Below, in pieces: positions 1,882-15,082 of a stretch of DNA of 19,202 nt. Under the pieces are notes generated by a model. That model did not search any database, was not told where the DNA came from, and saw only the letters and a list, made by a program, of their open reading frames with translations. This DNA is from Burkholderiales bacterium RIFCSPHIGHO2_12_FULL_61_11. GTDB lineage: Bacteria > Pseudomonadota > Gammaproteobacteria > Burkholderiales > Burkholderiaceae_C. Within the stretch, counting starts at the first letter, position 1; every line of letters begins with the position of its first letter. The stretch spans positions 2,180 through 21,381 of the forward strand of contig MERZ01000267.1 in NCBI GenBank assembly GCA_001770785.1. Direction: 5' to 3'. Both the position numbers and the translations under genes were made by a program.

Positions 1882-3297
1882 ATGGGACATCCGATTCGTC
1901 TTATAAAAAAATATGTCAACGACTTGCAATCAGGGGCAACTCATGAAAATCTGGAGATTGCCACCCGGTTTTTGCCCCTCTCCATGAACAATTCCCAGGC
2001 ATTAGCTGCAAAGAGATTCTTGCACCATGCACTTCGCAAAGCGTTTTCTGTCTTTCCCCGGTCCTTGCGGTTCGCCGTGTATCGCTCGTTTGTTGATTGC
2101 GATCCCAAACCCGACAAACGCCTGGTGCTCAAGATTGCGCAGACGAAAGAAGAACTGGAAGCGTGTTTCCGGCTCCTTCATGATGCCTATGTTGGAAGCG
2201 GTTTCATGCGGCCCGACCCATCTGGCATGCGCGCTACCATTTACCATGCGCTGCCAACCACGACCACGCTGTGCGCCAAGTTCGACGGCGAAGTCGTCGG
2301 GACCATTTCGCTGATTCGCGAAAGTGTTTTCGGCTTCCCCTTGCAGTCCATTTTTGACTTGCACGATATTCGGGAGAAAAGGGGCAGGATTGCCGAGGTA
2401 TCGGCGCTCGCGGTGCATCAGAAATTCAGGAAAACCGGCGGTTCCATCCTGTTTCCCCTGATGAAATTCATGTATGAATACTGCACCACTTTCTTCGATA
2501 CCCGCCATCTGGTGATTGCCGTCAACCCGAACCGGATTGAAATGTACGAGTCTCTCCTGTTCTTCGAAAGATTGACGGAAACCTCGGTTGAACACTACGA
2601 TTTCGTCAACGGAGCACCTGCGGTGGGCGCTTCTGTCGATCTGCACCTAGCCCCTGAAATTTTCAAACGGGTTTATGGCAGGAAACCGAAACGCAAGAAT
2701 CTCTATCGCTATTTTTTGCGGACCAAGTTGCGTAACATCATGATGCCAAGTCGGCGCTACTTCACGACCAATGATCCGGTGATGACGCCGGATTTGCTCG
2801 ACTATTTTTTCAACCAATGTACGCACACGTTTCAAAATCTGAGTGAAAGAGAAAAAGGACTGCTGCATTCCATCTACAACCTGCCCGAATACAAACCGGT
2901 ACTGCCGACGATTTTTTCCGAGTCCAGCTTCCGGACCCGTCAGCGCAAGCATCAGCGGTATTCACTCAAATGCCCCGGAAGTTTTTCTGTCACTGGCCCT
3001 GAAAAGACGGACGTTTATGCCCTGCGGGTGGTAGAGCTTTCCGCTGATGGCTTTCTGGCGCACTCCAAGGTGCCCCTGCCCGCCAACGTTTGGGGTGAAG
3101 CCATCATCCAGCTGGGGCACGATGAAAAGTCGGTGACCAAAGCCATGGTCGTACGTGGCAGTCACAAGGGACCGTATGGATTTTACGGATTCAAACTTCT
3201 TGAACCCGATCTGCCCTGGCGAAAACTTGTCGGCGTGTTGAAGTCCGGCATGATCGATGCAGACCTGGACAATGCCAGCCGATTCTTGCTGGACTGA
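1882..3297 (+). CDS. FeeM-like N-acyltransferase (GNAT fold) fused to a C-terminal PilZ domain
   Basis: This 471-residue protein has two parts. Residues about 80-260 resemble the GNAT-type fold of N-acyl amino acid synthases (FeeM type) and the acyltransferases of exosortase systems: LVLKIAQTKEELEACFRLLH, then GEVVGTISLI, then AEVSALAVHQKFRKTGG (171-187), the expected acyl-donor-binding core. Such enzymes join a fatty acyl chain from acyl-ACP to an amino acid. Residues about 352-455 form a PilZ domain with R355xxxR359 and the second motif ELSADG (385-390), where Glu replaces the usual Asp/Asn. PilZ domains bind cyclic di-GMP, so acylation may be controlled by this messenger. No signal peptide or membrane helix is seen, so it is probably cytoplasmic. 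The start is uncertain: ATG 1882 has no clear Shine-Dalgarno sequence, and Met35 (1984) is an alternative. It is convergent with the protease gene, with 16 bases between the stops. Confidence 0.8.
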   Translation: MGHPIRLIKKYVNDLQSGATHENLEIATRFLPLSMNNSQALAAKRFLHHALRKAFSVFPRSLRFAVYRSFVDCDPKPDKRLVLKIAQTKEELEACFRLLHDAYVGSGFMRPDPSGMRATIYHALPTTTTLCAKFDGEVVGTISLIRESVFGFPLQSIFDLHDIREKRGRIAEVSALAVHQKFRKTGGSILFPLMKFMYEYCTTFFDTRHLVIAVNPNRIEMYESLLFFERLTETSVEHYDFVNGAPAVGASVDLHLAPEIFKRVYGRKPKRKNLYRYFLRTKLRNIMMPSRRYFTTNDPVMTPDLLDYFFNQCTHTFQNLSEREKGLLHSIYNLPEYKPVLPTIFSESSFRTRQRKHQRYSLKCPGSFSVTGPEKTDVYALRVVELSADGFLAHSKVPLPANVWGEAIIQLGHDEKSVTKAMVVRGSHKGPYGFYGFKLLEPDLPWRKLVGVLKSGMIDADLDNASRFLLD

Positions 3298-3313: not shown

Positions 3314-4099
3314 TCAGTTGGACTTGCTCCGTTGCAACAATTCCTGAACAAACCTGGATGGAATGGCGTAGCTGATTCCAGACGGGTGAGTCAAAGCCGA
3401 TTCCCGGGTTCCTTTGATGAACACCATGTTCACAACGCCCAGCACCTCGCCTGTTTCCGGGTCAAACAAGGGACCCCCACTGTTGCCGGGATAGGCCGTT
3501 CCGTCCAGTTGAAAGATATCGAAACTTCCTCCCGAGCGCAAACTGCGTATGGTTTTTTGATTGAGCTGTTGGGCTGATGCGGTCGGCAAAGCAACTGCGG
3601 CGATGGAAGAAATCATGCCACGGTGCGTCACGGGTGAAAAACCCAGCGCCCCCCCAATCGGGAACCCCATGAACGCGATGGCTTGCCCCTCTTGAACCAA
3701 GCCGGAATCTCCCATGCTGAGCGCCGGTGCCGCAGGGCCTTCAAAACGCAGCAAAACCAGGTCATGAAGCTTGTCCACTTCGAGCACCGTCACGGGCCGC
3801 ATCTGCAGTTCATTTTGGTCCACCCTGATCTGGATGACCAATGCGTCCTCCATATCCTTCCCAGTTGGCTGCTGAAGGACATGGGCATTGGTGATGACCA
3901 GATTGCCACTTCCCGTACTTCCTTTGCCCACGACGAAACCGGTACCCCTCAACGCAAATCGCGGACTGTTTGTGCTTTTGTAGGTACCCACAATGACCAC
4001 TGACGGTTTTAACTTGGCAACGGTGCTGGCCATGTCGGCGCGCAAGGGCCCGGCAATAAAGAGGCCAGAAAGAACAAGAAAAATCAGCTTGGACTTCAT
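3314..4099 (-). CDS. periplasmic trypsin-like serine protease (DegP/HtrA-type catalytic domain, no PDZ)
   Basis: This 261-residue exported serine protease has a signal peptide at residues 1-21 (KSK, then LIFLVLSGLFIAG, then LRAD). The catalytic triad is complete: His73 in TNAHVL, Asp113 in LHDLVLL, and Ser207 in GNSGGPL. The protein ends soon after the catalytic domain, so it lacks the PDZ domains of DegP/DegS. A long loop around residues 160-195 precedes the GNSGG motif. The start ATG 4099 follows GGAG with good spacing. It lies 75 bases after the nucleotidyltransferase gene on the same strand, so it may be the last gene of that transcript and could process an exported partner. The substrate is unknown. 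Confidence 0.85.
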   Translation of the reverse strand: MKSKLIFLVLSGLFIAGPLRADMASTVAKLKPSVVIVGTYKSTNSPRFALRGTGFVVGKGSTGSGNLVITNAHVLQQPTGKDMEDALVIQIRVDQNELQMRPVTVLEVDKLHDLVLLRFEGPAAPALSMGDSGLVQEGQAIAFMGFPIGGALGFSPVTHRGMISSIAAVALPTASAQQLNQKTIRSLRSGGSFDIFQLDGTAYPGNSGGPLFDPETGEVLGVVNMVFIKGTRESALTHPSGISYAIPSRFVQELLQRSKSN

Positions 4100-4174: not shown

Positions 4175-5293
4175 TCAAGCCTTCAGATCAGCATCAGCAA
4201 TCGATTTTTCTTCGTTGTGCAATTTTGGCCGAATAAGCGCCTTCCGCCCCAAATGATATGCCAGCAAGAGAAATGGCATCCTGATCCAGTGTGAGCGCAC
4301 ATACAGTACAAAACGTGCGAGCCAGGTTCCCCATGAACCGGTACTGGAATGCACGGGCCGCAGAGCCCGCAAATAGCAGCCATCCATCAGCCTGGTCACC
4401 AGCGCCGACGGCTTGCCAATTTGGGCCGCGTCCAGCACATGCCGGGGTACAGGGGTATCGAGCATCAGCGTGGTGTACCTCAACGCGTAATAGAGAGGTC
4501 GTGTCAACCCCAATTTCACCGCGCGTGGCACCAGTTGCTCCCAGAAGCCCTGCGTATCACCAAAAAAACGCAGCAAGCTATCCAGGTCGAACAGGTCGCG
4601 CAATCCTTTTTCAAAATCCCCCTCCTGAAAGAGATGCGTGGCACTGTGGAGCATCATGTCTGCGGGCTGCAGAACATACAAGTTGGCATGGCCTGGCAGC
4701 GCAACCACGCCTTCCAGCAGAGCCGTTGTGTTGACTTTGATCCGCGCGGTTTCCGCCAGGATGGTATGGTGCACATCAATCGTCGTGCCTCGTCTGACGT
4801 GACGCATTGGGGGAATTTCGTGCATCCAGCGACGGTAATAACGCTGGTCGTACGCATCGTGGTGCGAGCTCTGCCAGCCATGGATCATCAATTCACTTTC
4901 GGTACGACCCAGTCTGTCTTTAGGCACGATGATGTCAACGTCCGAAAAAATCCGCCCGTGCGCAGCCGCAAGCCCGGCCATGACATAGGCAGCGCCTTTG
5001 AGCAGCGTGACCCGAACGCCAGCATCAGCGAGTTCTTTGCTAATGCATGCCACCTCCCAACGCAGGGATTGCTCTTGCCTGCTCGCCAATTTCATTGCAG
5101 AAGCCAGATGCAGGCGTGGTGCCATTGGCACTTCTTTCAGCAAGTCAGCTTGCTCTAGCGCATGCGCCAGACGAGCCAGCAGTTTCGTGCGACGCCCTTG
5201 TCGAATAAGCAGATCCCATTGCTGATCTGAAAACTGTGTCGTCGACGCTGGGGTGAGCAGCGCGGAAACAATCAAGTCACGCGGCGGCGTCAT
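4175..5293 (-). CDS. uncharacterised nucleotidyltransferase (PF14907 / NTP_transf_5 type)
   Basis: This 372-residue protein has features of the NTP_transf_5 family. LLKGAAY (97-103) is followed by SDVDIIV (117-123), in which Asp118 and Asp120 are the likely metal-binding pair of the polymerase-beta-like nucleotidyltransferase fold. Before this is a helical region (residues 20-90). After it comes a His-rich stretch with HEIPP and DVHHTIL typical of this family, then a helical C-terminal half ending in a basic, hydrophobic segment (around FVLYVRSHWIRMPFLLLAYHLGRK) that may touch the membrane. Its ATG shares one base with the stop of the HPr-kinase-like gene (TGATG), which indicates translational coupling. 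Members of this family occur with HPr-kinase-like and PqqD-like genes in some peptide-tailoring clusters. The nucleotide and the acceptor are unknown. Confidence 0.8.
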   Translation of the reverse strand: MTPPRDLIVSALLTPASTTQFSDQQWDLLIRQGRRTKLLARLAHALEQADLLKEVPMAPRLHLASAMKLASRQEQSLRWEVACISKELADAGVRVTLLKGAAYVMAGLAAAHGRIFSDVDIIVPKDRLGRTESELMIHGWQSSHHDAYDQRYYRRWMHEIPPMRHVRRGTTIDVHHTILAETARIKVNTTALLEGVVALPGHANLYVLQPADMMLHSATHLFQEGDFEKGLRDLFDLDSLLRFFGDTQGFWEQLVPRAVKLGLTRPLYYALRYTTLMLDTPVPRHVLDAAQIGKPSALVTRLMDGCYLRALRPVHSSTGSWGTWLARFVLYVRSHWIRMPFLLLAYHLGRKALIRPKLHNEEKSIADADLKA

Positions 5294-6207
5294 CAGATCC
5301 GGCCCTCCAGCAAATTGTTAAAAACCTGCTGGGCATCGTCGAGGCTGCTATATGTGAACTGATAACACTGGGTACTATCGACCAAGGCTCCCACCGCATC
5401 AAAACCTCTTTGCCCCTGAATGTCATAGTTAAAAGATTGCTCGGCTAGCAACATGAAGGTGCGTGCCCGACTGTGAGGGGCCAAGATAGGCGGCGAGTCA
5501 TGCACGTAATTGGGCAAAACGATCCATCTGGCTTGCACTGGCTCTTTGACCCGCATCACGCTGGACCCAGGCGGACGCAGCAAGGCAATGGTTCCTTTGG
5601 TGGTGTTTGGAACTGGCGCCGTCATGACAGCATCAGGGGCAAGGCGCTTGATGATGCTGATCGATTTATTTTTCAGACTGATGGGGCGCGCCATACCGTA
5701 AATCAAACCACTTTGCAGGTCATACAGCGCCAACTCATCTGAAAGAAGACGCCACCCCTTCACGACCAAGCCAGCGCACAGCGTGCTTTTGCCCGACCCA
5801 GGTGGCGCTGGCAGCACCACCGCCTTGCCGTTTTTTTCAATGACTGCAGCATGGATGACCAGATACTGGTGGCTGTGCGCTGCGACGCACCAATTCAGCC
5901 CCCACTCCAGCATGGCAAATGCCTGGGCGACCGGTAAGCCGGTAAAAGAGGGTTGTCCATCGAAAGAAAAACGCGCCTGTGGCTTGATCCAGCGTCGAAC
6001 ACCCGAGTCGCGCCGGACTTGAACATGGAAATCAGCAAAGACATCGGTAGGGCAGATATCAAAGTCTGCATACATAAGGGCGATGTCGCGCACCAGAGAT
6101 GGAACGTCGGTGGCCACCCGCGCCACAAAGGGCGTCAGGCGCAACAGCAGGTCGCCACAACGCAGCAGGCGAGCCAACTCTGCCAAAGGAACTTCAGAGA
6201 TTTTCAA
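5293..6207 (-). CDS. HPr kinase-related kinase (HprK-related kinase A family)
   Basis: This 304-residue kinase-like protein belongs to the branch related to HPr(Ser) kinase/phosphorylase. A Walker A loop APPGSGKST lies at 134-142 (Lys140). It is followed by LLSDE (154-158), containing the acidic residues expected to act in HprK-type catalysis, and by RPISLK (174-179), also typical of these kinases. Residues 1-110 are a separate N-terminal domain with LYADFD-like sequence (MYADFDICPTD). The residues just before the P-loop (LVIHAAVIEKNGKAVVLPA) form the usual beta strands. The start is TTG at 6205-6207, overlapping the stop of the PqqD-like gene as TTGA, which fixes this start and implies coupling. 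No PTS genes are present, so classical HPr is an unlikely substrate. A target encoded in the same cassette is more likely, by analogy with lasso-peptide kinases. Confidence 0.85.
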   Translation of the reverse strand: MKISEVPLAELARLLRCGDLLLRLTPFVARVATDVPSLVRDIALMYADFDICPTDVFADFHVQVRRDSGVRRWIKPQARFSFDGQPSFTGLPVAQAFAMLEWGLNWCVAAHSHQYLVIHAAVIEKNGKAVVLPAPPGSGKSTLCAGLVVKGWRLLSDELALYDLQSGLIYGMARPISLKNKSISIIKRLAPDAVMTAPVPNTTKGTIALLRPPGSSVMRVKEPVQARWIVLPNYVHDSPPILAPHSRARTFMLLAEQSFNYDIQGQRGFDAVGALVDSTQCYQFTYSSLDDAQQVFNNLLEGRI

Positions 6208-6491
6208 TCAGGGGTGTCTGTAACGAGTCCAATATCTCGCAACTTTAGCAAAGTTGCCGAGATTAACTCCGGTATCTTGTCGTGATCGTCGGCGGAGAAG
6301 AACTCAGCCAACTCTTGCGCAATCGCCTCCGCAGACGCGGGTGATTTTTCGATCAACCGGAGAATTTCAATGACCGAAGCCTCAATCAAATGCGTATCGC
6401 CGGTAAGCTTGTCGTAGGCCACCGCCAAATCATCATCGTCCCATGATGCGAAGACCAGCCTGGCTGGTGCAACTATCGACCACAAAATCAA
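6204..6491 (-). CDS. PqqD-like small protein of the HprK-related cassette (probable RRE-type peptide chaperone)
   Basis: This protein of about 95 residues has the PqqD-like winged-helix pattern: WDDDDLAVAYDKLTGDTHLIEA (beta hairpin and turn), then EILRLIEKSPASAEAIAQEL (helices), then a final helix ending LLKLRDIGLV. PqqD-fold proteins bind leader or substrate peptides and hand them to modifying enzymes. This one would present a substrate to the kinase or nucleotidyltransferase encoded directly downstream. There is no ATG in the frame after the upstream in-frame stop, so it must begin with TTG: 6491 (used here) or 6485 two codons later. No strong Shine-Dalgarno sequence is seen, suggesting weak or coupled expression after the exported-protein gene, which ends 46 bases earlier. 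Its stop overlaps the kinase start by four bases. Confidence 0.8.
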   Translation of the reverse strand: MILWSIVAPARLVFASWDDDDLAVAYDKLTGDTHLIEASVIEILRLIEKSPASAEAIAQELAEFFSADDHDKIPELISATLLKLRDIGLVTDTPD

Positions 6492-6537
6492 GATGGTGAG
6501 CCAAATTAAAGGATGGGAAAATGTGCGAGCAAGTCAA

Positions 6538-7188
6538 TCACGCTTGGACAATATAATTATTTTGCAAGTACAGCCTAATCTGATTCACGGTCCACGGCGT
6601 GCCTGCTGGATACGTCCCTGCCACGATCGCCAGCCAATTGGCATCGGTCACGCACTCGGTAGGCGGCTCGGCCCCGACTGCGTAGTTCAGCATGGCAACC
6701 AGGAAGTAACTCTGGTCATCATTGTTGCCCAGACCACCAGCGACTTTGGCCGTCGAGACAAACCCAAAAGATGAGGGGTCGCGCATGTAGGTACCGCCGA
6801 CGTATCCATACAGATCTGCGAAGGTAAACGAATTCGGGTTTGAATTAATTCCATATTTGCTCTTGAACGCTTCCCACGCAGTCCCACTGCCGTCGCTGCT
6901 CGAATTCCAGGCCGTTATTGTCCAGCCGGTTGTGACAGCAACGCCTTGCCCAGCATGCCTGGCAGCCTGGCTCGCACTGCCGCTAATTTGGTCCGATCCC
7001 CAGGCAGACGTTGAAATGCATTGACCAGCAAGCGCCGACTGGCTGGTCAAGGTGGCCAGCACCGGCACGGCGGAAGCACCCAGTCTGATGATCCGACGCC
7101 GGGATGGAGACGCAACCGGATGCATCTCCTTTACAACCCCTGCTGCCATTTCGGCGTCTTCCCCTGATAGTTTGTTAGTTTGGTTCAT
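6538..7188 (-). CDS. small Tat-exported protein, possible substrate of the HprK/PqqD-like cassette
   Basis: This 216-residue protein matches no family I recognise. Residues 1-28 are polar. A twin-arginine signal follows: SRRRIIR (29-35), a moderately hydrophobic stretch GASAVPVLATLTS, and a likely cleavage after SALA (51-54). The mature part of about 162 residues is rich in Gly, Ser, Ala, Tyr and Trp. It has only two cysteines, Cys57 and Cys179, which could form one disulfide after folded export. The C-terminal segment TPWTVNQIRLYLQNN looks like a helix. There is no PEP-CTERM tail and no lipobox. As the first gene of the cassette, ahead of the PqqD-like, kinase-like and nucleotidyltransferase genes, it is the obvious candidate for the modified target. 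Tat use implies that it folds, or is modified, in the cytoplasm before export. Confidence 0.75.
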   Translation of the reverse strand: MNQTNKLSGEDAEMAAGVVKEMHPVASPSRRRIIRLGASAVPVLATLTSQSALAGQCISTSAWGSDQISGSASQAARHAGQGVAVTTGWTITAWNSSSDGSGTAWEAFKSKYGINSNPNSFTFADLYGYVGGTYMRDPSSFGFVSTAKVAGGLGNNDDQSYFLVAMLNYAVGAEPPTECVTDANWLAIVAGTYPAGTPWTVNQIRLYLQNNYIVQA

Positions 7189-7357
7189 AAACCAGCCTCA
7201 TTCGTAACATATCTTACCGACTCGTTTCAATTCTAATAGCCCTTCGATAAATTGGATTATGCATATTTCATGCCGCATGAGTTAAGCCATTGATTTGTAT
7301 TTGTATTTTTCTTTGAAAATCAGGATGCAGCGAGAAATGTAAAAATAACCGACAGCA
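7189..7357 (-). other. AT-rich intergenic region between prsT and the exported-protein cassette
   Basis: These 169 bases are much richer in A+T than the flanking genes and contain no open frame of interest. I found no hairpin followed by a T-tract after prsT, so a Rho-independent terminator is not visible. The drop in G+C, together with the GG-N10-GC element at 7274-7289, suggests a promoter region and therefore an independent transcript for the downstream cassette. Confidence 0.5.
7274..7289 (-). promoter_or_regulatory. candidate sigma-54 (-24/-12) promoter of the exported-protein cassette
   Basis: Read on the minus strand, the element is TGGCTT-AACTC-ATGCG. GG and GC (plus-strand positions 7287-7288 and 7275-7276) are separated by exactly 10 bases, and 7 of 11 consensus positions match. 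Transcription would start near 7264, leaving a leader of about 75 bases before the ATG at 7188. PrsR, encoded about 3 kb upstream on the same strand, is a sigma-54 activator, which makes the site plausible. The surrounding AT-rich region would equally allow a sigma-70 promoter. Confidence 0.4.
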
Positions 7358-10132
7358 TTACAAACCCGTCAAGAGAGTTGAAACCTCTCCCTGCGCCGGA
7401 AACTTGTCGCCCAGTTTAGTCAACTCATTCAGCTCCTTCCTGGCCAAATCTTTTTTCCCGCCTTTGATATGGATCTTGGCCAGGTTGAGTTTGAACAAGG
7501 CGTTTTGCGGCTGCAGCGCCAGCGCTTTGGTTTGCAGCTCTACGGCCTTCGCATAATCGCCTTTGTCAGACAGCAGCATGGCCAGCGTGTCCATGAAAGC
7601 TGGCTGGTTGGGCGCCAGGGTATTGGCCCTCTCGGCATAGGCAACTGCACCGTCCTTGTTCAGTCTTGAGGTCACCCATGCGAGATTGTTGTAGGCAACC
7701 GCATTATTGGGTTGCAGTTTGATCACCTCCGCATAATTCTTTTCGGCGCTGCCGTAGTCCTTGCGCGCCAAGGCGCGGGTGCCCTGGTAATACAAAAAGG
7801 CGGCATCTTTCGGGTTGTCCTTCTGCCAGGTGGACAAAAACTTGTCGGCTTCCGCGCCTTTGCCAGAAGCCAGCAACACGGAATGCAGCTTAATGGCCAG
7901 ATCGGAAGAATTCACTTGCTTCAGCCCGACGCGATAAGCCGTTGCGGCACTGTCCCATTTCTTCTGCGAGGCGTTGATATCGCCTTCGAACACATAGCCC
8001 GCCGCCTCCTTGGGTCGTTGCTGCTGCACCGTTCGCGCCGTCGCCAATGCCTCCCCCAATTTTTTCGCATCCAGATCGAGTGCGATCAGAGCACGCTGCG
8101 CTTGCAGTAGATCGGGCTTGATTTCAAGGGCTTTGCGTAGGCTGGCGCGCGCCGCCTCCTTGTTTTTTTCAGCCAGGTGCGCAGCCGCCAGTCGCAGATG
8201 CGGCTGCGGCGAGAGCGGTTGCAGGCCCGCCAGCTTGTTGTAACTGGCAATGGCCTGGTTCAATTCCCCGGCAGCTTGTTGCGTGCGACCCAATGCATCC
8301 AGAACCTCGGGGCTGTCGGGTAACGCTGCGACTGCACTCTGCGCCGCCGACGAGGCTTGCTTGAAGTCCTTGTTACGCAAATGGAAGTTGATCAGCAACA
8401 GGCGCGGTGCCACGTCAGCAGGCTTGGCTGCCACGGCCTTGCCAATCAGCCTGGCCACCTCGTCTTTTGCAGCCCCCGACCGTGCCGCGAGTTCAGCCAG
8501 CGCCAACCATGCCTGGCCATTTTTAGGGTCTTTTGCCAGCACCGCCTCAAATCGCTTCTTGGCATCCTCAGGCTTCTTGTCGGCCATGTCCATTGCGGCC
8601 AGGCTGGCCACTGCCGGAAAATAGGACGGATCAATCGTCAACGCCCGCTCAAAGCTTTTTCTCGCACCAGCGGTGTCTCGCTTGGCCAACAGGGTTCTGG
8701 CCCGCAAAAAGGCTGCCAACGGTTTGGCGGGCTGCTTTTTCTCAAGACCGTCGATGGCCTTTAACGCCTTGTCAAATTCCTGACGCCTCAGGTGTGCGCT
8801 GATCAGGGCCAGGTCCGCCGTGGTGCCCGTGTCCGAGACAGCAATATCGCGCAGCTCTTCAAAGGCAGTGTCCACCGAGCCGCTCATCAGATGGGTTAAC
8901 GCCAGGGCGGTCCGCTTTCTGCCGTCCTTGGGCGCTTGCTTGCTCGCTTTCTCGAAATACTCCTGTGCCTGCTTGACGTCACCGTTTTGCAGATAGACCT
9001 CGCCCGCCACTGAAAGCAGCTCGGGATCGATGTTCTCCCGGTTCAAGCCCGGGAGTAAAGTCGCCATCGCCTTGGCCGGTTGTCCGGCGCGCAGATAGGT
9101 CACGACAAGCAAGCGCCGGGCCAACGCAAGCGTGGGCGCGGCCTGCACGGCCCTGCTCAGATAGTTTTCCGCTGACGGTAGCGAATTGAGTTGAAGCTCC
9201 ACGGCGCCCGCCAATTGCAGGCCTTGCACGTTGCCAGGAGCCGCTCTGACAACTTGCTGCGTCAGCTCTCGGGCCAGCTTGAAGTCTTTCTTCTGAAAGG
9301 CCAGCAGCGCCTCAAGGTACTGGGTCTGCGGGTGATTCGCCGAAAGTTTTTTCAGTTGTTCTATTTGCACGGCCGCCGCGGCGAGATCGCCTTTTTGCAG
9401 CAACATCGTTGTGACGGCGGCATGACCAGCCAGAAAATCGGGCTTGATTTCAACCGATTTTCGATACGCCGCCAAGGCATCATCGCCCTGATTTTTGGCA
9501 TACAGCAAAATGTCGCCTTTGAATTTCCAGGCCTCAAAACTCCTGGGCGATTTGGCAATCACGTCATCGACCATTGCCAGCGCTCCGTCGAAGTCGCGTT
9601 GCCCGGCCTTTTGTCGGGCCTGCGCAAGCAGGGCCGGCGCATAGCCTGGCTCCGCCTGCAAGGCAGCATCCAGGGCTGTTTGTGCAAGGTCAGGCTGGCT
9701 CTGCATGGCATAGGCAGACGCCAGCGTCATCTGCAGACTTGCCTTGGCCTGCGGCTGGGTCAAGTCAATTTTGGCAAATTCTTCGGTCAGTTTTTTTGCC
9801 TGCCCTTGCGCCATCATGGCTTTGGCCAGAGACGGAACCACCGCATCTTGCGGATGTTTCAAGTCGAGCGCCTTGCGCAGTTCCGTTTCGGCCCCCACGG
9901 GGTCGCCACTGTCCAGCAGCGCGCTGCCCAGCAAAAAACGCGCCTCTGGCAAATTCGGATCGCTCTGCAGCGCGTTTTTAATCTGGATGACCGCCGCCTT
10001 GTTATCATTTTTCGCCAAATAGTCTTTGGCGGAAATGATCATGGCTTCAGGTTTCTCACTGCAGGCAGCGAGTAGCAATGCCACCAGCAGAGCCGGCAGT
10101 GTCATGGGCGCAGTGGATTTCTTGAAGCTCAT
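7358..10132 (-). CDS. prsT: PrsT: PEP-CTERM system TPR-repeat lipoprotein
   Basis: This 924-residue lipoprotein is built almost entirely of tetratricopeptide repeats. Residues 1-23 are a lipoprotein signal (LLVALLLAAC), with the lipobox Cys24 as the acylated residue. From about residue 35 to the C-terminus run consecutive 34-residue TPR units with the usual pattern of small and aromatic residues (for example NNLAWV, AAYRKSVEIKPDF, and A-L-PNNA turns). Length and architecture match the TIGR02917 family (PEP-CTERM system TPR-repeat lipoprotein). It lies 41 bases after prsR and follows AGGGGGG at good spacing before ATG 10132, so prsK-prsR-prsT form one operon. It probably works at the periplasmic face of a membrane as a scaffold for polymer export or protein assembly; its molecular role is not established. 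Confidence 0.92.
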   Translation of the reverse strand: MSFKKSTAPMTLPALLVALLLAACSEKPEAMIISAKDYLAKNDNKAAVIQIKNALQSDPNLPEARFLLGSALLDSGDPVGAETELRKALDLKHPQDAVVPSLAKAMMAQGQAKKLTEEFAKIDLTQPQAKASLQMTLASAYAMQSQPDLAQTALDAALQAEPGYAPALLAQARQKAGQRDFDGALAMVDDVIAKSPRSFEAWKFKGDILLYAKNQGDDALAAYRKSVEIKPDFLAGHAAVTTMLLQKGDLAAAAVQIEQLKKLSANHPQTQYLEALLAFQKKDFKLARELTQQVVRAAPGNVQGLQLAGAVELQLNSLPSAENYLSRAVQAAPTLALARRLLVVTYLRAGQPAKAMATLLPGLNRENIDPELLSVAGEVYLQNGDVKQAQEYFEKASKQAPKDGRKRTALALTHLMSGSVDTAFEELRDIAVSDTGTTADLALISAHLRRQEFDKALKAIDGLEKKQPAKPLAAFLRARTLLAKRDTAGARKSFERALTIDPSYFPAVASLAAMDMADKKPEDAKKRFEAVLAKDPKNGQAWLALAELAARSGAAKDEVARLIGKAVAAKPADVAPRLLLINFHLRNKDFKQASSAAQSAVAALPDSPEVLDALGRTQQAAGELNQAIASYNKLAGLQPLSPQPHLRLAAAHLAEKNKEAARASLRKALEIKPDLLQAQRALIALDLDAKKLGEALATARTVQQQRPKEAAGYVFEGDINASQKKWDSAATAYRVGLKQVNSSDLAIKLHSVLLASGKGAEADKFLSTWQKDNPKDAAFLYYQGTRALARKDYGSAEKNYAEVIKLQPNNAVAYNNLAWVTSRLNKDGAVAYAERANTLAPNQPAFMDTLAMLLSDKGDYAKAVELQTKALALQPQNALFKLNLAKIHIKGGKKDLARKELNELTKLGDKFPAQGEVSTLLTGL

Positions 10133-10173
10133 TTTTCATCCCCCCTGAGAGTAAATTTAAGAGTCGTTACAAA

Positions 10174-11535
10174 CTACTTCAACCCCAGCCGATGCATCAA
10201 ATCGTAAAGCGTGGGCCGAGTCACCCCAAGCATTTCGGCTGCCTTGACCAAATTGCCGTTGACGCGACCCAAAGCCGCGATGATTGCCCGTTTTTCGGCA
10301 TTGTCACGGATCACGCGCAGGTCCAGTGAATTGTCAATTTCATCGCGCACCGTGTTTTTCAAACCCACATCTTCGCTGGAAATCTGGCTGCCTTCGGCCA
10401 TGATGGTGGCGCGCCTGATGCAGTTTTCGAGTTCCCGGATGTTGCCTGGCCAGGGGTGCGATTCAATGGCCCTGACGGCCTCTTCGTTGAGCGTCATGGT
10501 AGACCGATTTTGTTCCTGTGCAAAGCGTCGCACGAACGCATGCGCCAGCAGCGTCGCATCTCCGACGCGCTCGCGCAGCGGCGGAATGTTGACAACGATT
10601 TCAGCCAGCCGGTAATACAAATCCTCGCGGAACCGGCCTTCCTTGCTGAGCGCGTTCAAGTCCTGATGGGTGGCGCAAACGATGCGGACATCGACCGGTA
10701 TTTCCTGCCGGCCGCCCACGCGTTCGATCGTTCTTTCCTGCAAAAACCGCAGCAGCTTGGCCTGCAGCGGAAAAGGCAAATCGCCAATTTCATCAAGCAT
10801 CAGCGTGCCGCCGTTGGCCGTTTCGATCTTGCCCAGCGTCGTTTTTGCCGCGCCGGTAAAAGCCCCTTTTTCAAACCCGAACAATTCGCTTTCCAGCAGG
10901 TTTTCCGGGATCGCGGCACAGTTGATGGCGACAAATTTTTCCGCGCGCCGGGGTGACGACTGGTGCAGGCCGCGCGCCAGCAATTCCTTGCCGGTTCCGC
11001 TTTCACCCAGCAGCATCACGGTGGCGTTGCTGCTTGCAACTTTCTCGATCGTGCGGCAGATGCGCAGCATTTCGGGGTCGCGCGTCATCAGGCCCGACAA
11101 GGCATCGGGTTGATGCAGTGCCTGCAAACGCCGATTTTCGCTTTGCAGCTCAAATAGCCTGAAGGCCCGTTCAACGGTCAGGTTGAGCAACTCGGGCTCG
11201 AACGGCTTTGCGAAAAAATCATAAGCACCCATGGCAACCGCACGCAAGGCATTGGCCTGGTCGTTCTGTCCGGTCAGGACAATCACCTTGATGTCCGGGT
11301 CAAACGCCAACGTTTGCTCCAGCAGCCTGAACCCTTCAGAGACCGAGTCCGCGTCTGGCGGCAGCCCCAGGTCCATCGTGACCACTGCGGGCGTACTCTT
11401 GCGCAATTGCAGCAACGCGCTTTCGCGGTCATGCGCCGTCACCGAATCAAAGCGGTCAAGCGACCACTTGATCTGCTTTTGCAGGGCCAGGTCATCTTCC
11501 ACAATCAACAACGAACGCGCTTTTTCGGAGGTCAT
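10174..11535 (-). CDS. prsR: PrsR: sigma-54-dependent response regulator of the PEP-CTERM system
   Basis: This 453-residue NtrC-type regulator has three domains. The receiver domain (1-125) has the acidic pocket Glu13-Asp14-Asp15, phosphoacceptor Asp55 (VTMDLGLP), Thr88 and Lys110. The AAA+ sigma-54 interaction domain (about 147-375) has Walker A GESGTGKE (177-184), the sigma-54 contact loop GAFTGA (224-229), Walker B LMLDEIG (245-251) and an arginine-finger region. The C-terminal Fis-type helix-turn-helix (about 412-453) contains AAEMLGVTRPTLYDLMHRLG. All key residues are intact, so it should be an active enhancer-binding protein. Its ATG overlaps the prsK stop by four bases (ATGA), a tight kinase-regulator pair matching TIGR02915. 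Likely targets are sigma-54 promoters of exosortase-associated genes; two candidates occur in this window. Confidence 0.95.
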   Translation of the reverse strand: MTSEKARSLLIVEDDLALQKQIKWSLDRFDSVTAHDRESALLQLRKSTPAVVTMDLGLPPDADSVSEGFRLLEQTLAFDPDIKVIVLTGQNDQANALRAVAMGAYDFFAKPFEPELLNLTVERAFRLFELQSENRRLQALHQPDALSGLMTRDPEMLRICRTIEKVASSNATVMLLGESGTGKELLARGLHQSSPRRAEKFVAINCAAIPENLLESELFGFEKGAFTGAAKTTLGKIETANGGTLMLDEIGDLPFPLQAKLLRFLQERTIERVGGRQEIPVDVRIVCATHQDLNALSKEGRFREDLYYRLAEIVVNIPPLRERVGDATLLAHAFVRRFAQEQNRSTMTLNEEAVRAIESHPWPGNIRELENCIRRATIMAEGSQISSEDVGLKNTVRDEIDNSLDLRVIRDNAEKRAIIAALGRVNGNLVKAAEMLGVTRPTLYDLMHRLGLK

Positions 11536-13643
11536 GAGGTTTCCAGCGAATGAAGGTCTGATTGTTCCTGATTTTCAAATAAGGGCAAGAGCATTTTGAC
11601 CGTGGTTCCCTGCCCCAGTTCGCTAGCCACCTCAATGCGCCCCCCCAATTCCTGCACATACTGGAAGCTTTCATAAGCCCCAATGCCCATGCCGGCCTGC
11701 TTGGTGGTCTGAAACGGCTTGAACAGGCGATCCCGAATGAAATCCTGGGACATGCCCTTGCCAGTGTCACCCACCACAATTCGGGCCTGGCCACTCAAAC
11801 GATCAAGATTGATCCAGACGCGCCCGCCAGCGTCCGTGGCATCAAGAGCGTTCTGCACAACATGCCCGATGACGCGCTCCAGGCGTTCTTCATGACCACG
11901 GGTCACAACCGGCTCCGACAGCTGAACCTCAAGCTTTCTGCCCCGCCCGGCCGAGACGGCCTCAATGCGCTCGATGATGGTGCCCAGGTTCACGCCAAAG
12001 GCCGTCCCGGGGGGCGTGGCCCCCTCGCGCAACTGGAGCATCAACTGGCGCATCCGGTCGAGTGAATTCTCAACTGTCATCAACATATCTTGCTGAAACT
12101 CAGGGTTATGACTCAATCGTTTGGCGTTCTTCATCATCAGCGAGAGTTGCGTGACGATGTTTTTCAAATCATGCACGACAAAGGCTGACATGCGATTGAA
12201 GGCGTCAAACTTGCGCACCTCCAGCAGCGCTTCCGTGGCCTGCATTTGCGCGAGAAAGCTGGCGGCCTGCCGCCCCGCCGTTTTCAGCAAGTCATTGACC
12301 TCCCAGTTCACATCGACGGGCGTGCGCGCACTGGCCAGCACAACAAAGCCGATCAGCGCCTCGCCGACCATGAGCGGCACGACCAGCCAGGCCTGGGCCA
12401 GGTCCTGCAGCCAGGCCGGCAGTTTCAGTTGGCCGTAGCGCCGGGGATAAGACCGGTATTCTTCCAGGTTGATCACCCAGCCGCTGGTCATCATGAACTG
12501 GCACAAGGGCGAGCTGGCATCTTCCTTTTCCAGCGTCTGCGCCAGATTCCAGCGCGCCGTCTGGCTGAACGCCGCCTCGCCCTTGTTCTTCATCCACAGG
12601 CCCCCCGCCGGGCTCTCCAGCATGTCCGCCAGGCCACGAATGACCTGCTGCCCCATTTCCCGCGGGGAATTTTCGGCCGACAGGGTGCGCGTGAATTTCA
12701 GCCACTCCTCACGGTAATCAAAGCGGTAGCGAAAAAAGTTCTTGCCCAAAAACACCCGCAACTTGGCCCGTACGGAGCCAGACAGCCCCAGAACCAGCAG
12801 CATCACCAGCGCAAAAAATACCAGGCCCAACTGAAGTGCGCGCCCCCACTCGCCGCCAAAGTAGCGAACGTAGTAACCCACACTCGATATGAATATCAAA
12901 TACAGGCCAGCCATCAGCAGCGTGGCCGTTTGAAAAGCCGCCTTGGGTGACATGCGAATTTTTGAAATCCAGTCACTGCGCCGCGACATTGAAAGCAACA
13001 ACAGCGGCACCACCAGGGTATGCACGGCGCCACGGATGCTGAGCGCGTCGGCGTCGAGCCGGTTGAATAAGACAGCCTCCGAAAACACATACAAGTCGAA
13101 CAAAAACGCACTGAACAGGCCAAGACACAAGGGCTTGATGTTCCAGCGCGAATCTTCCGTCACATTCCTGAACACCTGTTCAAGCAAGACCAGGGCAAAA
13201 ACTGGCGAGGCCATTGAGCTGAACAAAATCAGCCGCGAGGTTTGTCCAAAAATACTGAGGCGCAGCGCGCTGAGCGCGAGCGCCAGCAGCCCGAACAACA
13301 CCACAACGGCCGCAAGCGGCGTCATCCATCTCATTCCGGCCGGTCTGCCTTGTGCGGGATTTGGCCGGAGCAGGATTAACAAGAATGCATACCAGCAGGC
13401 GTACCTGAGAAGATCAGCGAACGTGCTCAACAATAAAAACAGCGGCCTGCCGGTCAACAAAAGCGCCAGCCCAAACCAGCCCCACAGGGCGCTCCATGTC
13501 ACCGCCGCCAGCACCGTGGTTTTGGACCATTCCCGCGCAGAGCGCAAATAACCGAGCTGAATCAGCCGCAGGGCAAAAGCCGAATAGACCAACCCAACCA
13601 GGCCATAACCCCACGCGGTCAAGACAAGATTGCCGTTATCCAT
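11532..13643 (-). CDS. prsK: PrsK: membrane sensor histidine kinase of the PEP-CTERM system
   Basis: This 703-residue histidine kinase matches TIGR02916. Residues about 5-290 contain roughly eight or more hydrophobic helices, an integral-membrane sensor region. A GAF-like cytoplasmic domain follows (about 315-465, with AWLVVPLMVGEALIGFVVL). The dimerisation/phosphoacceptor region has His491 in VVHDLKNIV. The catalytic domain has the N box HVVQNALDA (594-602), G1 DTGKGM (626-631) and GMGIGAYES (651-659). An in-frame TGA just before the ATG shows that translation cannot begin further upstream than 13643. A tiny overlapping frame with a strong Shine-Dalgarno sequence precedes it (13636-13662). 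The stimulus is unknown; PrsR, coupled directly downstream, is the partner. Confidence 0.95.
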   Translation of the reverse strand: MDNGNLVLTAWGYGLVGLVYSAFALRLIQLGYLRSAREWSKTTVLAAVTWSALWGWFGLALLLTGRPLFLLLSTFADLLRYACWYAFLLILLRPNPAQGRPAGMRWMTPLAAVVVLFGLLALALSALRLSIFGQTSRLILFSSMASPVFALVLLEQVFRNVTEDSRWNIKPLCLGLFSAFLFDLYVFSEAVLFNRLDADALSIRGAVHTLVVPLLLLSMSRRSDWISKIRMSPKAAFQTATLLMAGLYLIFISSVGYYVRYFGGEWGRALQLGLVFFALVMLLVLGLSGSVRAKLRVFLGKNFFRYRFDYREEWLKFTRTLSAENSPREMGQQVIRGLADMLESPAGGLWMKNKGEAAFSQTARWNLAQTLEKEDASSPLCQFMMTSGWVINLEEYRSYPRRYGQLKLPAWLQDLAQAWLVVPLMVGEALIGFVVLASARTPVDVNWEVNDLLKTAGRQAASFLAQMQATEALLEVRKFDAFNRMSAFVVHDLKNIVTQLSLMMKNAKRLSHNPEFQQDMLMTVENSLDRMRQLMLQLREGATPPGTAFGVNLGTIIERIEAVSAGRGRKLEVQLSEPVVTRGHEERLERVIGHVVQNALDATDAGGRVWINLDRLSGQARIVVGDTGKGMSQDFIRDRLFKPFQTTKQAGMGIGAYESFQYVQELGGRIEVASELGQGTTVKMLLPLFENQEQSDLHSLETS

Positions 13644-13662
13644 GACTCAAGCCCTGCGGCAT
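13636..13662 (-). promoter_or_regulatory. 8-codon mini-frame overlapping the prsK start
   Basis: On the minus strand, GGAGG (plus-strand 13670-13674) lies 7 bases before an ATG at 13662. That ATG opens a frame of eight codons (MPQGLSHG) ending in TAA at 13636-13638, just past the prsK ATG (13643). The best ribosome binding site therefore serves the mini-frame rather than prsK, whose own site is the weaker AGGG. This arrangement could couple translation of prsK to the short peptide. It may also be chance. Confidence 0.3.
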
Positions 13663-13699
13663 GGCAACGCCTCCACAACGGTTGTTTTCCACCACCATG

Positions 13700-15082
13700 C
13701 TATTGCGAGCCCTTGCACAGCAGGACGACACCCACAGTTTCAAAGAGAACGACAAAATCAAGAAACAGGCTGTGATTCTTCACGTAGTAAAGGTCGTACT
13801 GGAGTTTTTCAGCCGAGTCTTCGACCGAGGCGCCATAGTGATAGCGTACTTGCGCCCATCCGGTAACGCCCGGCTTGACACTCTGGCGCACCGCGTAATA
13901 CGGCATCTCTTGCGTCAGTTTGTCCACAAAATAGGGCCGCTCCGGACGCGGTCCCACCAGACTCATATCGCCACCAAGCACGCTGAACAGCTGCGGCAAC
14001 TCGTCGATGCGCCGCTTTCGGATCACGCGGCCAACCCGCGTGACGCGCTCGTCAGTCGCCGATGCCCAGCGAGGCTGGCCATCTTTCTCGGCGTCCAGGC
14101 GCATGCTGCGAAATTTCACCACATTGAAAAGTCGCCCGTTGAGCCCGACACGTTCCTGGCGGTACAAAACGGGGCCGCCGCTCTCCAGCAGAATCAAAAG
14201 GGCAGTCACCAGCATGAGCGGCAATGTCAACAGAATCAACAGCGTCGCACAGACAATGTCACAGAGACGCTTCATCACCGTGCGCATCAGGCCCTGGTTA
14301 AATCCCTCACCGAAAATGAGCCACCCCGCAGAGACTGCCTCCAGCCTGATCTGCCCCAGGATTGTTTCAAAGTAGGTGGCAATATCGACCACCCGCACAC
14401 CCCGCAGCTTGCAATCGAGCAATTCACGCAAAGGCATGCTGCCGCCACGACGCTCGGACAAGGCGACCACGATCTGATCGACCCGATGCTCCATCACAAT
14501 GTCGGTGAGGGACTTCCCGGCTGGCAGCAGCGCCCATGCCGAGACCTCCTTCTCGGCCTCATTGGGACTGGCGTAATACCCCACCAGGTCAACGTTGGGA
14601 TCTGACTTTTCCAGTAGGCTGCCAACCAGCCTGGCACGCGCTCCTGCACCAAATATCAAGACACGCGGACGCATCATGGCTCGCGACTTGGCGTGAGCCA
14701 CATAAACCCGGTTAACCAGCATCAGGGCCGCTGCAGCCACCAGCGCCAGCACAAAAGCTCCCTCATTGGCCGGCTGGAGCGGTGAAAGACGAAGAATCAG
14801 GTATGACAAAGGCAATGAAAGACACAAGGACAGCACGGCACGGGCACTCGTTTGACTCACTGTGCGGTTATAAATCCGATCGTAAAGCCCCAGACTGGAA
14901 TTGATGATCAGTAGGCCGGCAGCGAACAAGAGCGCCGTGGCCACAACGACCGACGAGACTGAAGCCGGGTCCGCCACCTGTGACAGGGTGAAGACCACCA
15001 CGGCAGAAACCACCAGGCCAAGATCAAAAAATAGATGTAAAAGCGTGCCCTTGTGAAAATAGTAATTGAATACTTTTATCAT
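13700..15082 (-). CDS. polyprenyl-phosphate sugar transferase, PEP-CTERM/XrtA-associated (TIGR03013 type)
   Basis: This 460-residue membrane enzyme transfers a sugar-1-phosphate to undecaprenyl phosphate, starting the repeat unit of an exopolysaccharide. It has an N-terminal block of about four transmembrane helices (14-130) and a Rossmann-like CoA/NAD-binding-type domain with FGAGARAR (144-151). The bacterial sugar transferase domain (about 268-460) contains RQERVGLNG (308-316), the catalytic acidic pair Asp360-Glu361 in RRIDELPQL, LVGPRPERP (375-383) and KPGVTGWAQV (403-412). The start ATG 15082 follows GGGGGAG at ideal spacing. This leader is duplicated and is preceded by a hexanucleotide repeat. 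The gene is the first of the group followed by prsK, prsR and prsT. Sugar specificity cannot be read from sequence. Confidence 0.92.
   Translation of the reverse strand: MIKVFNYYFHKGTLLHLFFDLGLVVSAVVVFTLSQVADPASVSSVVVATALLFAAGLLIINSSLGLYDRIYNRTVSQTSARAVLSLCLSLPLSYLILRLSPLQPANEGAFVLALVAAAALMLVNRVYVAHAKSRAMMRPRVLIFGAGARARLVGSLLEKSDPNVDLVGYYASPNEAEKEVSAWALLPAGKSLTDIVMEHRVDQIVVALSERRGGSMPLRELLDCKLRGVRVVDIATYFETILGQIRLEAVSAGWLIFGEGFNQGLMRTVMKRLCDIVCATLLILLTLPLMLVTALLILLESGGPVLYRQERVGLNGRLFNVVKFRSMRLDAEKDGQPRWASATDERVTRVGRVIRKRRIDELPQLFSVLGGDMSLVGPRPERPYFVDKLTQEMPYYAVRQSVKPGVTGWAQVRYHYGASVEDSAEKLQYDLYYVKNHSLFLDFVVLFETVGVVLLCKGSQ

Follow-up and report, generated by a model that had tools for sequence, protein, structure and literature searches.

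A conserved four-gene cassette beside an XrtA/PEP-CTERM exopolysaccharide locus, most likely a protein-substrate relative of the phosphorylated lasso and linear peptide pathways

Phosphorylated peptides and the HPr-rel-A system

HprK-like kinases that act on peptides have been described in lasso peptide pathways and in those of the linear polyphosphorylated peptides (LPPs). The kinases PadeK and PsmK and the proteobacterial SyanK phosphorylate serine, and PsmN is required for the hexoses carried on phosphoserine, according to a review (PMC9266682). In the LPPs of Bacillota an HprK-like kinase phosphorylates the pathway's own peptide, with LppK adding several phosphates to S3 of the core; the precursors reach 200 residues and vary at the C-terminus, with the modified residue close to where the core begins (PMC13381572, 2026). 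Deletion of the NTP transferase gave no detectable change, and in LPP work the activity of this protein is unassigned. In both kinds of pathway, lasso and LPP, the RRE recognises a ribosomally made precursor peptide through a [YW]xxP leader motif (PMC13381572).

The cassette described here lies in a 19,202-nucleotide stretch of DNA, hereafter the window, and encodes a Tat-type exported protein (Exp), a PqqD-like protein, an HprK-related kinase and an NTP_transf_5 protein. It resembles the LPP clusters in bringing together a discrete RRE, an HprK-like kinase and an NTP transferase; in both, the N-terminal part of the precursor or putative substrate is conserved and the C-terminal part variable, and the conserved serine motif of Exp stands near the place expected from the modified serine at the start of the LPP core. 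LPP clusters are, moreover, often accompanied by capsular polysaccharide genes. In contrast, LPPs are restricted to Bacillota according to PMC13381572, while the cassette is found mostly in Pseudomonadota; and where LPP pathways have a SipW-like peptidase, an MsbA-like exporter and a YxxP leader, Exp has a Tat-type signal and a predicted folded domain. Among the window genes scanned there is neither an SpI/SipW-like leader peptidase nor an MsbA-like exporter, and the [YW]xxP motif occurs in 0 of 93 Exp N-termini; we therefore reject membership of the LPP family. The paeninodin and pseudomycoidin type of lasso peptide shares with the cassette a B1-type RRE, a serine-acting HprK-like kinase and a nucleotidyltransferase-like protein. 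It differs in its substrate, which here is proposed to be a protein of about 200 residues that does not end in a conserved serine (11 of 93), and membership is rejected because macrolactam cyclase and B2 protease are missing among the window genes scanned.

A canonical role in the PTS is likewise rejected. The kinase shares the P-loop core of HPr kinase/phosphorylase, and its His, GKS and Asp align with those of 1jb1, but it scores 16.1 bits against TIGR00679, for which the cut-off is 240, and a separate canonical hprK is present in the same genome on another contig (C405). The original prediction that the locus lacks a lasso cyclase and is not a standard PTS locus stands for the window genes scanned, which include no canonical HPr kinase. 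The nearest named relative is the HPr-rel-A system of NCBIfam, under which the kinase (TIGR04352) and the PqqD-like protein (TIGR04353) are already named and whose curated cut-offs both clearly exceed. The names of these models, which are used by no paper in the literature searched, state neither substrate nor mechanism, and the Exp family is covered by no NCBIfam model.

The cassette and its enzymes

The four genes lie on the minus strand in the order Exp (6538..7188; 216 residues, ATG start), PqqD_rel_X (6204..6491; 95 residues, TTG), HprK_rel_A (5293..6207; 304 residues, TTG) and NTP_transf_5 (4175..5293; 372 residues, ATG), with start codons taken from the longest open frames. This is the order that had been predicted from the sequence, and every gene except that of Exp has a family match. 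The predicted overlaps of 1–4 bases are present between PqqD and HprK (4 bases) and between HprK and NTP (1 base), and Exp is separated from PqqD by a gap of 46 bp; thus two of the three junctions overlap.

The PqqD-like protein matches TIGR04353 with 70.9 bits (curated cut-off 35). Its structural model (pLDDT 92.9) has the winged-helix fold of an RRE, and the best matches in the PDB are the lasso B1 RREs 5v1u, 5v1v and 6jx3 (E 5.5e-4 against TbiB1 and 2.1e-3 against 6jx3); the modelled fold resembles that of leader-bound lasso B1 proteins. The kinase matches TIGR04352 with 418.3 bits (curated cut-off 200), and a profile search pairs it with HPr kinase 1jb1 (7.1e-5). Its P-loop had been described as intact, and it is: the lysine K140, the preceding H119 and the following D157 and E158 are identical in all 153 aligned kinases, with E158 in the position of the second Asp of HPr kinase. 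The nucleotidyltransferase-like protein matches PF14907 with 201.1 bits (cut-off 31.2); K99 and G100 are constant in 141/141 aligned proteins and D118 and D120 in 140/141, in a numbering shifted by 8 to count from the ATG.

Exp and the recurrence of the cassette

The window Exp matches no Pfam or NCBIfam model; 46 homologues were found by homology search. Its sequence features are those of a Tat substrate, with a signal at residues 30–54 (RRRIIRLGASAVPVLATLTSQSALA; 7027..7101, minus strand) that comprises an RRx-phi-phi motif, a hydrophobic stretch and a predicted cleavage site after A54, judged by eye. In the 93 Exp proteins of the family R30 is present in 90, R31 in all, RRx-phi-phi in 82 and an A-x-A-like cleavage site in 83, and a TatC-encoding stretch, interrupted by a contig end, is found in the same genome. 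Behind the signal lies C57-x3-S61-[GA]-x2-S65-x3-S69 (6982..7020, minus strand), a candidate modification site by its conservation across the 93 proteins: C57 is found in 88, S61 in 81 (Thr in a further 9), S65 in 88 and S69 in 67. S[GA]xxS occurs in 80 of the 93, against a shuffle mean of 9.7 and a maximum of 17; it is missing in the other 13, and the looser [ST][GA]xxS in 19 of 76 Exp proteins, with small Nitrosomonas-type proteins among those that lack the motif. The signal and this stretch are the best conserved parts of Exp by sequence comparison, with mean pairwise identities of 0.39 and 0.32 respectively versus 0.19–0.22 for the remainder of the mature protein. From about residue 80 to 216 (6541..6951, minus strand) a folded helical domain of a divergent TPGYWKNH type is predicted by AlphaFold2, with block means of 83–94 from residue 91 onward; it has no match among solved folds, and the domain is found again as a module within giant open frames. 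Exp differs from the sorting substrates of XrtA in that the window protein has no PEP-CTERM match in NCBIfam, and none of the models matched by 68 Exp proteins is a PEP-CTERM one.

The cassette occurs in many bacteria of water and soil, mostly Pseudomonadota. The association is more than chance: in 92 of 96 family loci the kinase has Exp, PqqD and NTP together with it on the same strand, none more than 4 kb away. The check proposed with the original prediction, whether an exported protein always adjoins the kinase/PqqD pair, finds Exp less than 4 kb from the kinase in 94 of the 96 (the other two are interrupted by contig ends) and beside it in 78 of 80 loci of a named genome set, a set that overlaps the family sample, since contigs of identical length suggest that some organisms occur in both. 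There PqqD is present in 77/80 and NTP in 79/80, with all four genes together in 74/80. The junctions are conserved as well, with a start no more than 15 nt from the previous stop at PqqD/HprK in 88/94 and at HprK/NTP in 91/96. In three of the 96 family loci (L059, L066 and L092) Exp flanks the opposite end of the kinase gene. The Exp profiles were built from family loci, and matches there are therefore partly by construction; the independent parts of the evidence are a label-free test for Tat-type starts and the distribution of Exp over genomes without the kinase. By the former, a Tat-type start lies upstream in 125 of 144 loci versus 57 of 883 control windows, and on the opposite strand in 6 of 144. 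By the latter, a comparison of the kinase and Exp tables by eye, no full-length Exp is found among the best 8 candidates per genome in the 306 genomes of the family that have no kinase over the cut-off. Absence of the exported protein from most cassettes, which had been named as the contrary outcome, is thus the opposite of what was found. Outside the family, no exported partner was recognised at 8 of 57 loci, of which two are short of upstream DNA; over-cut-off kinases stand without a recognised Exp or PqqD at L167, L170, L176, L184 and L194, and L209 has PqqD and NTP without a recognised Exp. One over-cut-off fragment (G569) was left out.

The window is also an XrtA/PEP-CTERM exopolysaccharide locus, a point absent from the original prediction. 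Upstream of the cassette, at 7358..15082 on the minus strand, are genes for an EpsB-type transferase (13700–15082; TIGR03013), PrsK (11532–13643; TIGR02916), PrsR (10174–11535; TIGR02915) and PrsT (7358–10132; TIGR02917), all over their cut-offs. Moreover, we find that the cassette tracks XrtA from genome to genome, frequently unlinked: the exosortase is present in 89 of 93 kinase genomes versus 102 of 399 genomes overall, a contrast whose significance is overstated by Fisher values since the sampled genomes are related. Phylum-wide, 36 of 61 kinase genomes have no over-cut-off XrtA among the candidates scored. These genome-wide searches scored the best 8 candidates per genome for Exp and the best 6 for the kinase and XrtA, so that rare extra copies may escape. 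The same EpsB-type transferase, PrsK, PrsR and PrsT occur in a floc-formation locus whose floc-deficient mutants carry insertions in epsB2 and prsK; complementation confirmed epsB2 and prsT but not prsK (PMC9850573); HPr, PqqD and nucleotidyltransferase are absent from that text. The cassette is apparently part of this slime- and floc-building machinery.

A proposed route of modification and export

Comparison with these pathways suggests that the cassette is most likely a protein-substrate relative of the phosphorylated lasso and LPP systems, and we think it probable that it forms a unit of substrate and modifying enzymes in which RRE-guided serine phosphorylation and decoration by the NTP transferase precede Tat export. 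In this model, which is inferred as regards substrate identity, modification site, chemistry, sequence of events and matrix role, the PqqD-like protein would bind its co-encoded partner Exp in the N-terminal part and present it to the kinase, which would add at least one phosphate to serine in the C-x3-S-[GA]-x2-S-x3-S segment, with S65 the preferred site, followed by S61 and S69. The NTP_transf_5 protein would next add a nucleotide or sugar onto the phosphate, and the modified, folded Exp would be exported by Tat, a sensible route for a protein that needs to fold and be modified in the cytoplasm. Since the cut at A54 would leave the modified segment behind it, the tag would end up close to the N-terminus created by cleavage, on a protein of the periplasm or cell surface that serves the XrtA/PEP-CTERM exopolysaccharide matrix. 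The original prediction for this locus, that a folded protein is modified ahead of its export by Tat, is supported by the near-constant presence of Exp beside the kinase.

Other readings of the locus have to be weighed against this. The target of the enzymes could lie elsewhere, for instance in a lipid-linked exopolysaccharide sugar or a PEP-CTERM protein, and Exp would then be no substrate but a partner carrying, sensing or delimiting their activity; the often unlinked co-occurrence with XrtA, the loci without a recognised Exp and the NTP-transferase activity left unassigned in LPP work are consistent with such a target, which we nevertheless consider somewhat improbable, given that the RRE gene of the window stands between those for Exp and the kinase, that RREs of the lasso and LPP pathways bind ribosomal precursors, and that Exp, with its conserved leader and variable core, has a substrate-like pattern. 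It is unlikely that Exp is instead a long RiPP precursor whose phosphorylated N-terminal segment is excised as a small linear product, with the folded domain as carrier. The enzyme set is that of the LPPs, whose precursors are of comparable length, and a trypsin-like protease is encoded directly downstream in the window; in 13 of 96 loci a homologous frame follows the cassette on its own strand at a distance of up to 4.5 kb. Against this, the window genes scanned include neither of the LPP-type processing and export proteins, and the domain is confidently predicted to fold and recurs as a module.

The segment around the twin arginine might also be the leader bound by the RRE, with Exp exported by Sec or kept in the cell. 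It coincides with the region that an RRE would be expected to bind, with no second leader motif in evidence: the stretch ahead of the arginines, where one was sought and not found, is not conserved, shows only weak positional enrichment and lacks [YW]xxP. The RRx-phi-phi motif, the hydrophobic stretch, the A-x-A-like site and the TatC stretch in the genome make this reading doubtful in our judgement. That the four genes are mere neighbours without a shared function is scarcely credible, given their joint presence in nearly all loci of both sets and their conserved junctions.

If the preferred reading of a substrate and its modifying enzymes is true, RRE-guided serine phosphorylation by HprK-like kinases, so far a matter of short peptides, would also apply to exported proteins that are folded, the HPr-rel-A system would gain a substrate and a testable site, and the XrtA/PEP-CTERM exopolysaccharide machinery that underlies flocs in activated sludge would acquire a branch that modifies proteins. 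More speculatively, the cassette may represent a general means of tagging folded proteins before export, in which RRE machinery akin to that of the small-peptide pathways places a phospho-linked sugar or nucleotide on the N-terminal segment of a Tat protein and so joins the protein to the XrtA-dependent exopolysaccharide; a tag serving as attachment point would account for the way in which the cassette accompanies XrtA between genomes. Because PrsR belongs to the RpoN-type regulators, the Exp genes were also examined for a shared sigma-54 promoter, which is not supported, a loose pattern being found in 13 of 93 upstream regions against a shuffle mean of 6.0 (maximum 14) and in 11 on the opposite strand; in the window, TGGC-N8-TGC is located 101 bp upstream of Exp.

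Anatomy of the cassette

Our analysis bears out the four-gene cassette of the original prediction, with its coordinates and order on the minus strand of the window. A 216-residue Tat-type exported protein with no family match (Exp; 7188-6538) is followed by a PqqD-like protein (6491-6204; TIGR04353, 70.9 bits, cut-off 35), an HprK-related kinase (6207-5293; TIGR04352, 418.3 bits, cut-off 200) and an NTP_transf_5 nucleotidyltransferase (5293-4175; PF14907, 201.1 bits). The kinase and PqqD-like protein together are the HPr-rel-A system of NCBIfam. In a sample of 399 genomes from the window's family (Burkholderiaceae_C), TIGR04352 exceeded its cut-off in 93, at 96 places, which comprise the window and 95 further loci that were read. 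The genes are tightly coupled, as in an operon: 88 of 94 PqqD/HprK pairs and 91 of 96 HprK/nucleotidyltransferase pairs have their nearest start no more than 15 nt from the preceding stop.

Several neighbouring features were also observed. A trypsin-like serine protease is encoded immediately downstream of the cassette (3314-4099, minus strand) and has homologous frames at 18 of the 96 loci, 16 of them within 4.5 kb and 13 downstream on the same strand. An N-acyl amino acid synthase domain of the FeeM type (1882-3297, plus strand; PF21926, 152 bits) is joined to a longer C-terminal part, and this frame has homologues in 8 of the 96 loci. A sigma-54-like site, TGGC-N8-TGC (7275-7289, minus strand), begins 101 bp upstream of Exp, beside the RpoN-type PrsR; other Exp genes show no enrichment of this pattern in their upstream regions.

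Exp as a near-constant member of the cassette

An exported protein had been expected beside the kinase/PqqD pair in homologous cassettes, and within the family this holds: 94 of the 96 loci carry Exp, which in 92 lies with the PqqD-like protein and nucleotidyltransferase within 4 kb of the kinase and on its strand. The four incomplete loci comprise two upstream contig ends (L113, L125), one without a PqqD match (L124) and one in which the kinase and nucleotidyltransferase matches share a single called frame (L122). Exp flanks the kinase from the opposite side in L059, L066 and L092. A reverse search of the 399 genomes with an Exp profile gave a match in 92 of the 93 genomes that have the kinase; the sole exception (G261) ends at a contig edge, and in G205 the match is on another contig, 392 bp from its end. 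Comparison by eye of the matches listed for the 306 genomes lacking an over-cut-off kinase revealed no full-length Exp: the one strong match (G249) covers model positions 79-179 inside a 1808-residue frame, and the remainder are short, mostly over the signal, with E of 4.2e-5 or worse. As the profile was built from 68 of the Exp sequences, the matches in kinase genomes are circular in part; the absence elsewhere is free of that circularity. A homology-free test looked on the kinase's strand, 0.9-2.2 kb upstream of the kinase centre, for a twin-arginine start with a hydrophobic stretch and a cleavage-like site. Such a start was found at 125 of the 144 loci that had room for it; the corresponding figures are 57 of 883 for control windows and 6 of 144 for the opposite strand. 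Two Exp-like frames were seen near one kinase in L050, L057, L079 and L289, the first three from one genus (g53).

The association extends beyond the family. In a phylum sample the kinase exceeded its cut-off in 61 of 398 genomes, three of them in the window's family, and 57 further loci were read outside it (L153-L209). With the Exp profile, 41 of these loci show a partner (E up to 0.003); in 8 more (L199-L201, L203-L206, L208) a small Tat-type protein with a core judged by eye to be unrelated occupies the same place; seven of these eight are, at a guess, sphingomonad-like. In L199-L201 and L203-L206 this protein is much smaller than Exp, with a core beginning C[EQ]IPVP, and the two whose whole sequence was read (L200, L206) have the C-terminus C[FY]ASLQMPR. 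No exported partner was recognised in the other 8 of the 57 (L167, L169, L170, L176, L184, L190, L194, L209); in two of these, L169 and L190, upstream DNA is scant or missing. In L167, L170, L176 and L184 the kinases exceed the TIGR04352 cut-off, and neither PqqD nor Exp was recognised in their vicinity; the L184 kinase adjoins a frame resembling, by eye, a sugar-nucleotide dehydrogenase. Two below-cut-off kinase examples (L210, L211) have no Exp. Within 4 kb at 80 loci from named genomes, which judging by title are for the most part beta- and gammaproteobacteria with one Phycisphaeraceae MAG, we found Exp in 78, PqqD in 77, the nucleotidyltransferase in 79 and all three in 74; the samples share some organisms. 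Exp is missed in L266, with 349 bp of upstream DNA, and in the Phycisphaeraceae locus (L274), and lies downstream in L229 and L246.

Architecture of Exp and a proposed modification pathway

Residues 1-29 of Exp are variable and precede a signal of the Tat type (R31 in all 93 sequences, RRx-phi-phi in 82), behind which lies the motif C57-x3-S61-[GA]-x2-S65-x3-S69 (C57 in 88 of 93, S61 in 81 with Thr in 9 more, S65 in 88, S69 in 67). The core pattern S[GA]xxS is carried by 80 of the 93 sequences, where shuffling gives a mean of 9.7 (maximum 17); of 78 Exp frames tested from the named genomes, 76 have the signal, and 57 of these 76 carry [ST][GA]xxS (shuffle mean 11.4, maximum 20). Mean pairwise identity falls from 0.39 for the signal, a value inflated by hydrophobic composition, to 0.32 for the motif, 0.19-0.22 for the remainder of the mature protein and 0.14 for the residues preceding the signal. 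AlphaFold2 gives residues 1-54 a pLDDT below 50 and, starting near residue 80, predicts a helical domain, a fold with no PDB match. Four giant open frames (L293-L296; 1295 to 3394 residues in the DNA covered) each contain two copies of the Exp-type domain, with a TPGFWKNH-like signature; the one stretch of L294 scanned contains SdrD_B domains, with no Pfam best stretch over the Exp-type domain.

The active-site motifs of the two enzymes are intact. In the kinase, H119, G137, G139, K140, S141, T142, D157 and E158 are kept in 152-153 of 153 sequences; aligned by profile with HPr kinase 1jb1 (E 7.1e-5), it has E158 facing the second Asp of that enzyme. The nucleotidyltransferase keeps K-G in 141 of 141 sequences and D-x-D in 140, which we take to be a polymerase-beta-type site. 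The PqqD-like model (pLDDT 92.9) best matches leader-bound TbiB1 (E 5.5e-4) and lasso B1 6jx3 (E 2.1e-3).

The near-constant adjacency, the RRE encoded between Exp and the kinase, and the design of conserved leader and variable core suggest that Exp is the substrate. We propose that the RRE-fold PqqD-like protein would present Exp to the kinase, which would phosphorylate a serine near the future N-terminus; the nucleotidyltransferase may then decorate that phosphate, and Tat would export the folded, modified protein. This order of steps is probably how the cassette works, with its chemistry drawn by analogy from the lasso-peptide tailoring proteins PadeK/PsmK and PsmN (portions of PMC9266682) and from LppK, the kinase of linear polyphosphorylated peptides (LPP; portions of PMC13381572). 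The cassette lies by definition outside both the LPP and lasso pathways, yet would work like them. The HPr-rel-A system is already named in NCBIfam; in the open-licence PMC literature, preprints excluded, we found no paper under its names, and no exosortase/PEP-CTERM paper among the matches listed from open-licence PMC mentioned HPr kinase or PqqD, the other listed matches on the subject being lasso and LPP work.

Exosortase and exopolysaccharide context

Upstream in the window, on the cassette's strand, an EpsB-type sugar transferase, PrsK, PrsR and PrsT each exceed their cut-offs; this region is an XrtA/PEP-CTERM exopolysaccharide locus. In Aquincola, floc-deficient insertions map to epsB2 and prsK, and complementation confirms epsB2 and prsT, not prsK (portions of PMC9850573). 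The exosortase XrtA (TIGR03109) is over cut-off in 102 of 399 family genomes, including 89 of the 93 with the kinase; the four kinase-only genomes are 74, 94, 90 and 86% complete. By genus (n = 141), 37 have both, 3 the kinase only and 4 XrtA only. Among the 89 genomes with both, the pair lies within 60 kb in 17 and farther apart on one contig (up to 2.6 Mb) in 12; in 26 more the kinase sits on a contig that lacks XrtA, at more than 60 kb from either end, and in 34, the window's genome included, the distance is undecidable. Since many pairs are far apart or on separate contigs, linkage by itself does not account for the co-occurrence. In the phylum sample the kinase occurs in 25 of 35 XrtA genomes versus 36 of 363 others, and these 36 indicate that it is often present there without an over-cut-off XrtA. 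PrsT-related frames are found in 21 of the 96 family loci. The window also encodes a 678-residue protein (15356-17392, minus strand) with a weak O-antigen ligase domain (Wzy_C, 29.9 bits, below the 31.7 cut-off) and a long extra C-terminal part.
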